Source of the DNA: Candidatus Thioglobus perditus
GTDB taxonomy: Bacteria > Pseudomonadota > Gammaproteobacteria > PS1 > Pseudothioglobaceae
Direction of reading: 5' to 3'
Length of the DNA stretch: 47,762 nucleotides
Assembly: GCA_002909145.1 (NCBI GenBank)
Contig: PNQY01000087.1
Location: 1-47,762 of the forward strand
The notes under the pieces were generated by a model that was not told where the DNA came from, made no database searches, and worked only from the letters and a program-made list of their open reading frames with translations. How positions within the stretch are numbered: position 1 is the stretch's first letter; each line of letters opens with the position of its first letter. Positions 20,687 to 46,465 of the stretch are shown in pieces. The position numbers were made by a program, and so were the translations under genes.

Positions 20687-21406
20687 ATGAAAACAGCATT
20701 AGTAACAGGAGGAGCCCACCGTATTGGAGCACAAATTTGCCGCACCTTGCATGACAACAATTTTAATGTAATTATTCACTACAAAAACTCAGCATCTGCA
20801 GCGCAAGATTTAGCTACAGAGCTAAATAAAAAACGCAAGAACTCAGCATCAATAATTCAAGCCGATCTATCCAACATAAAAAGTATTGAAAAATTATGCT
20901 CAGCAATTAATAGCTTGGATGTACTGATAAATAATGCTTCAGTATTCTATCCAACGCCAATCAGTGAAATAAATAAAGACTCGTACCAGCAAATTATGAA
21001 TACAAATCTCATGGCTCCACTATTTTTATCAACCACACTTGCAGACAAAATGTCGGACAACAATGGATGCATTGTAAATATTGTTGATATTCACTCACAA
21101 CGTCCATTAAAAAATTACACTATTTACAATATTTCAAAAGCTGCAATTGCAATGATGACCAAAACCCTTGCTAAAGAATTAGCCCCAAAATTGCGAGTAT
21201 GCGGAGTATCTCCTGGGTCAATTTTATGGCCTGAAAATTCAGCTGAGATTGACCAAAATAAAAAAAATAAGATGCTAAATAAGATTGCCTTAAAAAAGCA
21301 AGGTAGCAGTGAAGATATTGCGCAGACCGTTCTATTTTTAATAAATTCCAACTACATTACTGGACAAATAATTAGTGTTGATGGCGGTCGCACACTTAAT
21401 CAATAA
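20687..21406 (+). CDS. Pteridine reductase-like short-chain dehydrogenase
   Basis: This 239-aa SDR protein probably reduces dihydro-monapterin or dihydrofolate, as FolM does. The cofactor motif is TGGAHRIG at 7-14; Arg in place of the usual Gly-x-Gly spacing is typical of pteridine reductases. NNAS, the active-site YNISK and a C-terminal GQIISVDGG are also present. The serine of the catalytic triad appears replaced by Asp (NIVDIHSQRP), again as in pteridine reductases. The gene name folM is plausible but not proven. No Shine-Dalgarno sequence is obvious. Confidence 0.8.
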   Translation: MKTALVTGGAHRIGAQICRTLHDNNFNVIIHYKNSASAAQDLATELNKKRKNSASIIQADLSNIKSIEKLCSAINSLDVLINNASVFYPTPISEINKDSYQQIMNTNLMAPLFLSTTLADKMSDNNGCIVNIVDIHSQRPLKNYTIYNISKAAIAMMTKTLAKELAPKLRVCGVSPGSILWPENSAEIDQNKKNKMLNKIALKKQGSSEDIAQTVLFLINSNYITGQIISVDGGRTLNQ

Positions 21407-21437
21407 CAAATTTTTGATTAATATCATACTATCTTTG

Positions 21438-21446
21438 TGATATAAT
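21438..21446 (+). promoter_or_regulatory. Extended minus-10 promoter upstream of rne
   Basis: TGATATAAT is a perfect extended -10 (TGN-TATAAT). The predicted start, about 21453, leaves a leader of about 410 nt before the rne ATG. No clear -35 at 17 bp is seen, which extended -10 promoters can tolerate. Confidence 0.6.
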
Positions 21447-21493
21447 CAAAAGGCTTGAGTACTTTTGTGCTATGCAAAAAAGAATTTTTTAAT

Positions 21494-21855
21494 ATTTTTG
21501 TGCTAAGAATAAAATCACAAAAATTTTTATATATTTTGGGCTTTTTTATTGCCACATATAGAGAATTAATTATCATTTTACCTCAAGGTGAAATGCAATG
21601 AAAAAAGGTGAAAAACCTTTAAGAAATAGGCTTTATAGTTATTTATGTTTTTGATAAATTACAGTTTGACTCCTATAAAAAGTGCGTAAGCGCTAAAATC
21701 TCTACGTGTAATAAAAAGTCCGTTTAAGGACACTTTTAATAAGCTATAAATCGCTAATATTTGAATTATTTTATTGCCAATTTACAAACAATTAATCTAA
21801 TAAATTACTATATTTAGCCATATGTAGGTTGTTATCAATGTCCTCATTATAGGAC
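21494..21855 (+). promoter_or_regulatory. Long structured 5' leader of rne with candidate SD-sequestering switch
   Basis: The 455-bp gap before rne holds a series of hairpins: ATTTTTGTG/CACAAAAAT (21494-21524), AAAGGT/ACCTTT (21604-21620), AGTGC-GTAA-GCGCT (21681-21694), GTCC/GGAC (21718-21731) and GTCCT-CATTAT-AGGAC (21840-21855). The last one buries the AGGA ribosome site of rne. AGGAC at 21727-21731 can pair instead with GTCCT at 21840-21844, which would free that site. In E. coli a long rne leader mediates RNase E autoregulation; a similar role here is inferred. Confidence 0.5.
21598..21654 (+). CDS. Possible 18-aa upstream ORF in the rne leader
   Basis: ATG 21598 opens an 18-codon frame (MKKGEKPLRNRLYSYLCF) ending at TGA 21652-21654. 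AAGGTG at 21585-21590 lies seven bases upstream. Its codons 3-7 form the AAAGGT/ACCTTT hairpin, so translation and structure would interfere. Very short frames occur by chance in AT-rich DNA, so this is tentative. Confidence 0.25.
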   Translation: MKKGEKPLRNRLYSYLCF

Positions 21856-21861
21856 TTAACA

Positions 21862-23901
21862 ATGAATCATATTTTAATAAATGCAACTCATAAAGAAGAA
21901 ATTCGAGTTGGTATCGTAAAAAACAAAAAACTTACTGGCCTTAACATTGAAACCAGTTTAAATAAAAAAACCAAAGGCAACATTTACCGTGGAAAGATCT
22001 CTCGAGTAGAGCAATCATTAGAAGCTGCATTTGTTGATTATGGTAAAGAAAGACAAGGCTTTTTACCTTTTAAAGAAGTTGCAGAATCACTATACAATGG
22101 CGCAAAGCCCAAGGGTGACAAGTTAACAATTTCTGATGTTTTAAAAGAAGGTCAAGAAATAATTATTCAGGTTGAAAAAGAAGAGCGTGGCAACAAGGGT
22201 GCAGCACTTAGTACTTATATAAACCTTGCTGGCGCATATATGATATTAACGCCAAATAATGCAAAAAGCCACGGCATATCAAGACAAATAAACTCCTCAG
22301 ACAGGCAATCGCTTAAAGAAATTCTAGGCAAGATAAACATGCCTAACAATTCTGGGTTAATTATTCGCACTGCAGGTGCAGGAAAGGATTTAGAAGAACT
22401 ACAATGGGAGGTTGATTACCTTTCAGATTTATGGAAATCTATAAATAAAGTTGCTGAAGAGCGCCCTGCCCCATTTTTGATTTATCAAGATAGTGATATC
22501 ATTATCCGCACTCTGCGTGACTACCTAAGAGAGGATACCGACAGTGTTATTATTGATGAACTTGAAGCTTTTCAAAATGCCAAAGAGTTTGTTAGCTTTG
22601 TATTGCCACACTATCTAGATCGCATTAAATTCTTTGATGTCTCACAACACTCCTTGTTTAATCACATGGGTGTTGAGGCTCAAGTTAGAAGTGTATTTAA
22701 CCGTGAGGTATCACTACGCACAGGCGCAACAATTGTATTTGACCCAACAGAGGCATTGACCGCAATTGATATTAACTCTGCACGCGCAACCAAAGGTTCT
22801 GATATTGAAGAAACTGCATACAATACTAATTTAGAGGCAGCCAAAGAGATAGCTATACAATTGCAACTTCGAGATATTGGAGGATTAGTTGTTATTGACT
22901 TTATTGATATGTCATCTGAAGAGAATCGTAAATCAATTGAAAAGGCTATGGAAAAAGCCACCAATGCTGATCGTGCTCGCATCCAAATTGGCACTATCTC
23001 TCAATTTGGTTTGCTTGAAATGTCGAGACAGAGACTAATGAATTCTGTTACAGAATCAGTAGAAAAATCTTGCCCAGCATGTAGTGGTCGCGGCACAACA
23101 CCAACCATTCCAACGCTTGCTCTAAATATACTAAGACAGCTTGAAGATGGTTGTAACGCTTCCAATCAAACTGCACGTCTAACTATTCAATCAAGTGTAG
23201 AGGTAATAACCTACATATTAAATGAAAAACGTCAAGATATACTAAAACTAGAAGACAAACATGGGATAAAAGTTACATTGTTGCCTAACCCTTATATGCA
23301 GTTCCCTAACTTTACTATTAATAAGCAAAAAGGTGAAAAGAAATCACAACATAAGAGCTACCAAGGCATCTCAAAGCCTCAGCATACATTAGCTGAAAAT
23401 GGCTTAACAACTCAAGATGAATTGCCGGCTATTGATGTTAATAGACCAAAGACTCGTATGCCTGAGAAGCAAATTTCTTTATTTGAAAAAATCAAAGCTG
23501 CACTATTTGGCAAAAAGAAAAAGAAAACCAATAAGCGTAGAACCAATCCTAATAATCGTAATAAAAATCGTAATCGTAATAGGAATCGTAATAGAAATCC
23601 TAATAGAAATCCTAAACAAAACAATAACCCTAATCAAAACAAAGGACAGAATAAACAAGGTAAAAAACAACCACAAAAAACTAATAAACCTCAAACAAGG
23701 ACTCAAAATAATAAAAACCCACAGTCACAAGGCAACAAGGTAAAACAGGAGTCTGAAAATAAAACCAAGACTAATCCACAGTCACAAGGCAACAAGGTAA
23801 AACAGGAGTCTGAAAATAAAACCAAGACTAATCCACAGTCACAAAATAACAGCCCTAAGGTCAAAGAAGATAAAAAGCAAGAGATTGCAAAAACAGAATA
23901 A
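21862..23901 (+). CDS. rne: Ribonuclease E
   Basis: This 679-aa endoribonuclease should process rRNA and tRNA and start mRNA decay. The N-terminal catalytic half aligns residue for residue with E. coli: the S1 domain (about 36-120), Mg2+ ligands D303 (TAIDINS) and D346 (VIDFIDM), and the Zn-link C404-P-A-C407. The C-terminal region (about 500-679) is much shorter than in E. coli. It is low-complexity, with an RN/KN-rich tract (about 555-585) that could bind RNA, and two exact 19-residue repeats near the end. I see no clear membrane-anchor helix or known degradosome motif. aroE follows after 2 bp. Confidence 0.93.
   Translation: MNHILINATHKEEIRVGIVKNKKLTGLNIETSLNKKTKGNIYRGKISRVEQSLEAAFVDYGKERQGFLPFKEVAESLYNGAKPKGDKLTISDVLKEGQEIIIQVEKEERGNKGAALSTYINLAGAYMILTPNNAKSHGISRQINSSDRQSLKEILGKINMPNNSGLIIRTAGAGKDLEELQWEVDYLSDLWKSINKVAEERPAPFLIYQDSDIIIRTLRDYLREDTDSVIIDELEAFQNAKEFVSFVLPHYLDRIKFFDVSQHSLFNHMGVEAQVRSVFNREVSLRTGATIVFDPTEALTAIDINSARATKGSDIEETAYNTNLEAAKEIAIQLQLRDIGGLVVIDFIDMSSEENRKSIEKAMEKATNADRARIQIGTISQFGLLEMSRQRLMNSVTESVEKSCPACSGRGTTPTIPTLALNILRQLEDGCNASNQTARLTIQSSVEVITYILNEKRQDILKLEDKHGIKVTLLPNPYMQFPNFTINKQKGEKKSQHKSYQGISKPQHTLAENGLTTQDELPAIDVNRPKTRMPEKQISLFEKIKAALFGKKKKKTNKRRTNPNNRNKNRNRNRNRNRNPNRNPKQNNNPNQNKGQNKQGKKQPQKTNKPQTRTQNNKNPQSQGNKVKQESENKTKTNPQSQGNKVKQESENKTKTNPQSQNNSPKVKEDKKQEIAKTE
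23720..23843 (+). repeat. Perfect 57-bp tandem repeat inside the rne 3' end
   Basis: Two identical 57-bp units lie at 23720-23776 and 23777-23833, followed by the first ten or so bases of a third. Each encodes 19 residues (QSQGNKVKQESENKTKT within the unit). The units are multiples of three and identical in sequence, indicating a recent in-frame duplication. Confidence 0.95.
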
Positions 23902-44029: not shown

Positions 44030-44106
44030 TGGTAGTCACGGTCAGATTTGAACTGACGACTTCCAGCATGTCATGCTGGCACTCTAACCAACTGAGTTAC
44101 GCGACT
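44030..44106 (-). tRNA. tRNA-Val (anticodon GAC)
   Basis: Read on the minus strand, a 77-nt cloverleaf begins AGTCGCG and ends CGTGACT-A-CCA; the CCA is encoded (complement of 44030-44032). The D-arm is ACTCAGTTGGTTAGAGT, the anticodon arm CCAGC-ATGACAT-GCTGG, and the T-arm contains GTTCAAATC. Loop bases 34-36 are GAC, which reads GUC/GUU valine codons. The acceptor stem has one G-U pair. It starts with A rather than the usual G. Confidence 0.92.
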
Positions 44107-46388: not shown

Positions 46389-46465
46389 GCCTTCGTAGCT
46401 CAGCTGGATAGAGCAGCCGCCTCCTAAGCGGCAGGTCAGAGGTTCGAATCTTCTCGAGGGCACCA
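46389..46465 (+). tRNA. tRNA-Arg (anticodon CCU)
   Basis: This 77-nt cloverleaf runs from GCCTTCG to CGAGGGC-A-CCA with the CCA encoded. The D-arm is AGCTCAGCTGGATAGAGCA, the anticodon arm GCCGC-CTCCTAA-GCGGC, and the T-loop is GTTCGAATC. Bases 34-36 are CCT, so it reads AGG. tRNA-Arg(CCU) genes are frequent integration targets in bacteria. Confidence 0.94.

Follow-up and report, generated by a model that had tools for sequence, protein, structure and literature searches.

RNase E sets global mRNA decay. Upstream of its gene, rne, the stretch of Candidatus Thioglobus perditus DNA that we analysed (47,762 nt, hereafter the window) carries a long region that an initial annotation read as a switch-like RNA leader, in which mutually exclusive hairpins would hide or expose the ribosome-binding site. 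Does this region control the translation of RNase E, which of its segments pair with each other, and is the arrangement shared with other species?

The rne locus and its predicted leader

The window belongs to a GC-poor gammaproteobacterium. Judged by rne, it is nearest to Candidatus Thioglobus, Ruthia/Ruthturnera, Bathymodiolus symbionts and SUP05 genomes (family Thioglobaceae). This family contains marine sulfur oxidizers as well as symbionts of clams and mussels. The rne gene lies between a pteridine reductase gene on one side and aroE on the other. Its product matches TIGR00757 at 475.8 bits, above the cut-off, and NCBIfam PRK10811 with an E-value of 1.7e-179, below the cut-off of that model. 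The C-terminal part of RNase E (window 23545-23844) is of low complexity: it contains Asn/Arg repeats, and a 57-bp unit is repeated perfectly 2.2 times. The gene and the elements of its leader outside the switch segments are as follows.

21438..21446, + strand: extended -10 promoter element of rne, TGATATAAT
21480..21492, + strand: conserved A/U-rich segment between the first two hairpins, AAGAAUUUUUUAA (alignment; AAGAATTT in 52 of 65 leaders)
21495..21523, + strand: hairpin UUUUUGUG ... CACAAAAA (MFE fold; kept in most long leaders)
21553..21563, + strand: CACAUAUAGAG, 5' strand of a long-range helix closing a branched domain (RNAalifold, pair counts, swap test p ~0.016)
21681..21694, + strand: hairpin AGUGC-GUAA-GCGCU, counterpart of a covarying CAGCAC/GUGUUG hairpin in relatives
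21700..21709, + strand: CUCUACGUGU, 3' strand of the long-range closing helix (RNAalifold, pair counts)
21862..23901, + strand: rne, RNase E, 679 aa, with its ATG at 21862 (NCBIfam and TIGR00757 profile matches)

The extended -10 element had been proposed in the initial annotation, and the comparison with other genomes bears it out: an element of the TGNTANNAT type recurs in 64 of 65 relatives, 230-327 nt 5' of the rne ATG. In the window the distance to the ATG is 424 nt, about 118-124 nt more than in the closer relatives. From this conserved promoter, a leader of about 400 nt is predicted to be transcribed. The leader of the window folds better than dinucleotide shuffles (z -3.5), and no + strand terminator was found in it, for which reason we rejected control by transcription termination. 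Among the hairpins, CAGCAC/GUGUUG of the relatives is paired in 99% of cells, with both sides changed in two pairs; in the long-range closing helix, the column pair 26-171 is G-C in 13 sequences and A-U in 4.

A conserved anti-SD segment with two predicted partners

When upstream regions of the relatives are aligned, they end in AAGTCC, a short loop, AGGACTT, about 4 nt and the ATG, and some symbionts deviate from this pattern. In nearly all relatives, the Shine-Dalgarno sequence (SD) pairs with the AAGTCC-like segment just 5' of it, mostly across a loop of 6-10 nt. We refer to this pairing as OFF and to the alternative pairing of the same segment with an upstream G-rich block as ON. The segments involved in the window are the following.

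21538..21550, + strand: G-block GGGCUUUUUUAUU, the anti-anti-SD, 5' strand of the ON helix (unconstrained duplex search; unsupervised RNAalifold)
21710..21721, + strand: AAUAAAAAGUCC, which holds the anti-SD AAGUCC (21716-21721, the counterpart of the AAGTCC-like segment of the relatives) and pairs with the G-block (ON) or the SD (OFF)
21851..21857, + strand: SD AGGACUU of rne, 3' arm of the OFF hairpin (OFF helix paired in relatives)

The G-block lies about 180 nt 5' of the anti-SD, or about 115 nt in a Pseudothioglobus-like genus. An unconstrained search for duplexes with the 13-nt anti-SD segment ranks it as the best 5' partner in 57 of 65 leaders, namely 56 relatives and the window with an insert (described below) removed. 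Unsupervised RNAalifold on 44 long leaders likewise paired the anti-SD with GGGCUUU about 180 nt 5' of it and not with the SD, and the ON helix was recovered again without constraint on 18 cleaner sequences. It was missed on 25 diverse leaders because the U-run was misaligned there.

The two strands of the ON helix differ together between lineages. For instance, G-block and anti-SD read GGGCUUUUUUAUU/AAUAAAAAGUCC in the window and GGGCUUUUUGUUGC/GCAACAAAGUCC, GGCUUUUUU/AAAAAAGCC, GGGCUUAU/AUAAGUCC or GGGCUUAUUGA/UCAAUAGUCC elsewhere. Among eight lineage representatives, which comprise few independent lineages, native ON partners reach -11.1 kcal/mol compared to -8.1 kcal/mol for swapped ones, a mean cost of 3 kcal/mol per swap, and none of 20,000 permutations was as good. 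For the pairing extension outside the shared core alone, 19 of 20,000 permutations were as good. Furthermore, the ON column pair 9-184 is U-A in 11 and A-U in 7 sequences and thus paired in 18 of 18, a double-sided covariation. We counted 18 double-change cells compared to 6.1 in shuffles (0 of 500 had as many), with far lower values in slid controls. Pair counts in our alignment A2 gave 88% of cells paired. A G.U wobble in the ON core is retained in 17 of the 18 sequences of A2, as expected if its U must also pair with an A of the SD in the OFF state.

The OFF helix is paired in 94% of cells in 18 relatives and is nearly invariant. Since the SD is fixed, hardly any covariation is seen in its core; in one leader (L080), both arms have changed, to UUGUC/GGACAA. 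Support for the OFF helix consists of conservation, this one compensated case, the energetics (the 6-bp SD hairpin has -5 to -7 kcal/mol) and the wobble retained in the ON helix. AAGUCC is thus conserved together with two predicted, mutually exclusive partners, the SD and the upstream G-block. Anti-SD/anti-anti-SD translational switches are a known general class, in which a single segment pairs either with the SD or with a partner 5' of it. The Thioglobaceae leader resembles them in that one segment, conserved across species, is complementary to both. A local GGC...GCC hairpin is a third possible partner for the G-block, and it may accompany the OFF state.

A leader without regulated exchange, whose SD hairpin would do no more than dampen translation and whose long-range helix would be a fixed part of the structure, would agree with an OFF helix that hardly covaries. 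We consider such a static leader unlikely, since one set of anti-SD nucleotides is conserved to fit both partners and the ON helix keeps its wobble.

Predicted balance of the two states

The same question can be addressed with partition functions, whose energy models are rough for A/U-rich RNAs of 300-450 nt. By this measure, 63 relatives have a median of 0.47 for ON and 0.32 for OFF, and the window has 0.74 and 0.25. When the leaders are shortened to 3' fragments without the G-block, the median for OFF rises to 0.99 in the relatives, and OFF reaches 0.77-0.99 in the window. A strong bias to one state, as in some species, is what a static leader would allow; against it, in most species ON and OFF together account for nearly all pairing of the anti-SD, and on average the two are balanced.

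The switch segments vary among the symbionts. ON is weak or lost in five leaders (L004, L008, L070, L071 and L077), and OFF is weak in several mussel and clam symbionts. In some clam/vesicomyid symbionts with reduced genomes (L004, L008, L070, L071 and L140), the anti-SD is altered to AAAUCC or AAAUUC and the SD hairpin is largely lost. The decay of the anti-SD in vesicomyid symbionts would fit a loss of control during genome reduction.

Family range and known rne leaders

To delimit the leader, we used a covariance model (R1). It has 54 matches at E<=0.01 among 73 loci, every one of them from within the family, and no match in the searched loci from outside the family. Almost all of these matches end at the rne ATG. 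With strict filters, a search of 369 class-wide genomes gave matches in the four family members among them only.

Rfam has no match at gathering score in the leader of the window or in those of seven relatives (L002, L005, L007, L010, L013, L018 and L022), and no known aptamer or thermosensor family above threshold in the leader. The sole Rfam matches at gathering score in the whole window are two tRNA genes, at 44033-44106 (- strand) and 46389-46462 (+ strand). The initial annotation had already set the leader apart from rne5, and the rne5 model (RF00040, gathering score 180 bits) indeed has no match in the window or the seven relatives; it is also missing from the matches at E<=10 in 21300-21960. 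The positive control, E. coli rne, is matched by rne5 at 260 bits. Similarly, rne-II (RF01756, gathering score 50 bits) has no match in the window or in the Thioglobaceae leaders searched, and its positive controls from Pseudomonas/Serpens (L116 and L118) score 194-202 bits. As both models are silent while their controls match, we rejected membership in either family.

The leader shares some general properties with these elements. Like rne5, it is a cis element, located in the long 5' UTR of rne, with a multi-hairpin domain and a long-range closing helix that ends shortly before the start codon; however, RF00040 contains no SD pairing and stops short of the E. coli start region. The rne-II element of Pseudomonadales is likewise a structured 5' UTR of rne from a lineage of gammaproteobacteria, whereas its model does not match the Thioglobaceae leader. 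The rne 5' UTR of Synechocystis is also long and has U-rich segments, and RNase E cuts a U-rich site in it, which has been proposed as self-cleavage (PMC10989929). What is reported there is cleavage and premature termination, not SD sequestration (PMC10989929), and the likeness is one of layout. Neither this leader nor control of rne by such a layout is described in the literature searched, most of which lay outside subscription papers.

An insertion in the loop of the SD hairpin

The strings on which the initial annotation built its switch are present in the window: TGATATAAT at 21438-21446, GTCC-GTTTAA-GGAC at 21718-21731 and GTCCT-CATTAT-AGGAC at 21840-21855. It took the last two as local hairpins that compete with a pairing of AGGAC (21727-21731) and GTCCT (21840-21844). 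These latter segments are the two ends of an insertion specific to this genome.

21727..21844, + strand: 118-nt insertion with inverted-repeat ends AGGACA/UGUCCU (upstream alignments; fold; end of the R1 match)

The insertion lies within the ancestral SD hairpin, in its loop (AAGTCC GTTTA, then AGGACA ... TGTCCT as the insert, then CATTAT AGGACTT) and removes neither the OFF nor the ON helix. Its borders are ambiguous (118-124 nt): taken as a candidate target-site duplication, the flanks GTTTA/CATTA match at 3 of 5 positions, and other boundaries, e.g. an AGGAC duplication, fit equally. R1 matches the window at 21537-21734 with 83 bits, so that the match ends 127 nt before the ATG, whereas it ends at the ATG in nearly all relatives.

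The start hairpin GTCCT-CATTAT-AGGAC is not the conserved element, as the SD of nearly all relatives pairs with the upstream AAGTCC-like segment instead. The segments 21727-21731 and 21840-21844 are absent from all relatives; for this pair, that is the outcome which the initial annotation itself had named as a refutation. In addition, the two states would not hide and expose the SD by turns: it is paired when both local hairpins form, and it is hidden when AGGAC and GTCCT pair because the released AAGTCC takes it. In the full-length ensemble, the insert stem AGGACA/UGUCCU is predicted at about 97%, in favour of the proposal, and the local SD hairpin is populated at about 2.5%. Dinucleotide shuffling of the leader yields a perfect 5-bp local SD hairpin in 0.17% of cases, and the hairpin is therefore not a trivial chance find. 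From the relatives and the ensemble, we rejected the AGGAC/GTCCT pair as the switch and regard this version as hardly tenable. The long structured leader, the sequestration of the SD and the exclusive pairings of the initial annotation stand, with different partners from those it named.

Where does the insertion come from? It folds into a single long imperfect hairpin (z -3.05) with terminal inverted repeats AGGACA/TGTCCT and 31-nt arms that are 74% complementary. It is absent from all other genomes among the 83 family genomes searched. Its own genome contains no second copy; the matches there are short, A/T-rich and chance-like, and we rejected a repeat family of this genome. Matches to the centre of the insert in two further species (G089 and G014) lie antisense in a receptor-like coding gene, and we therefore ascribe them to chance. 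We also considered a partial tandem copy of the leader. The similarity of the insert to its own leader is in slight excess over that to 65 relatives and is not significant (34 of 300 shuffles were as good), and R1 gives the insert just 8.6 bits, carried by the SD end; this origin was not adopted. Most likely, and as the simplest reading, the insert is a decayed MITE-like element.

A similar case is found in Ca. Thiodubiliella endoseptemdiera (L073), where one rne leader contains two MITE-like copies of 161-162 nt (L073:1966-2127 and L073:2322-2482) with the ends GAGACCTTTGCATAA/TTATGCAAAGGTCTC and 5-bp duplications, ATATT and CTACT. The downstream copy, flanked by CTACT/CTACT, occupies the SD-hairpin loop, the same loop as the insert in the window, and the other copy lies upstream. 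The GGTCTC end of the element in the loop could act as a surrogate anti-SD.

A possible mechanism of rne feedback

Taken together, the region of about 400 nt 5' of rne is probably a family-wide bistable leader that controls the translation of RNase E and is read by RNase E itself. Most likely, it represents a new class of rne feedback leader that acts via SD sequestration, with a putative trigger. That RNase E is the sensor is suggested by analogy, because feedback through the rne 5' UTR is established in E. coli and acts there by cleavage (PMC10989929).

In the ON state, the pairing of G-block and anti-SD would extend the long-range closing helix of the branched domain, and the SD would be free. 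In the OFF state, the anti-SD would fold onto the SD just downstream. With little RNase E, the leader would stay intact, the ON helix would form and rne would be translated. Excess RNase E would cut in A/U-rich single strands between or 5' of the two ON strands and thereby separate them; the conserved segment at 21480-21492 is a candidate cleavage site. The anti-SD would then fold onto the SD, translation would stop, and the naked mRNA would be degraded. Both the control of translation and cleavage as its trigger are thus presumed steps of this model.

The same E. coli precedent (PMC10989929) and the A/U-rich segments conserved in Thioglobaceae leaders could instead indicate feedback without SD switching: RNase E would bind or cleave the leader, the mRNA would decay, and the SD pairing would be incidental. 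We judge this distinctly unlikely, as it leaves the near-universal SD hairpin and its dedicated competitor helix unexplained and the rne5 model finds no match. Alternatively, the same switch might respond to temperature, a small molecule, an sRNA or a ribosomal protein. The energy of the 6-bp SD hairpin is within the range of thermosensors and a binding site could lie in the branched domain, yet such a trigger seems very improbable given the silence of the aptamer and thermosensor families and given that the controlled gene encodes RNase E, to which its known leaders respond.

Returning to the switch read by RNase E, we tentatively put forward a more specific version: a third, unrelated class of rne leader, conserved across Thioglobaceae, in which a cut between G-block and anti-SD might irreversibly flip the SD hairpin to OFF, and which decays in some reduced symbionts and tolerates the insertion of a mobile element in the SD-hairpin loop. 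The rne leader of Pseudomonas is unrelated to that of E. coli, and the Thioglobaceae leader would be the third. If true, the autoregulation of rne would have been re-invented in the abundant SUP05/Thioglobaceae with a different RNA architecture that contains an explicit SD switch. Such a switch makes the reading of RNase E levels by the leader testable with small reporters. Two species, that of the window and Ca. Thiodubiliella endoseptemdiera, carry insertions in the same loop, which serve as natural experiments on the tolerance of the switch.
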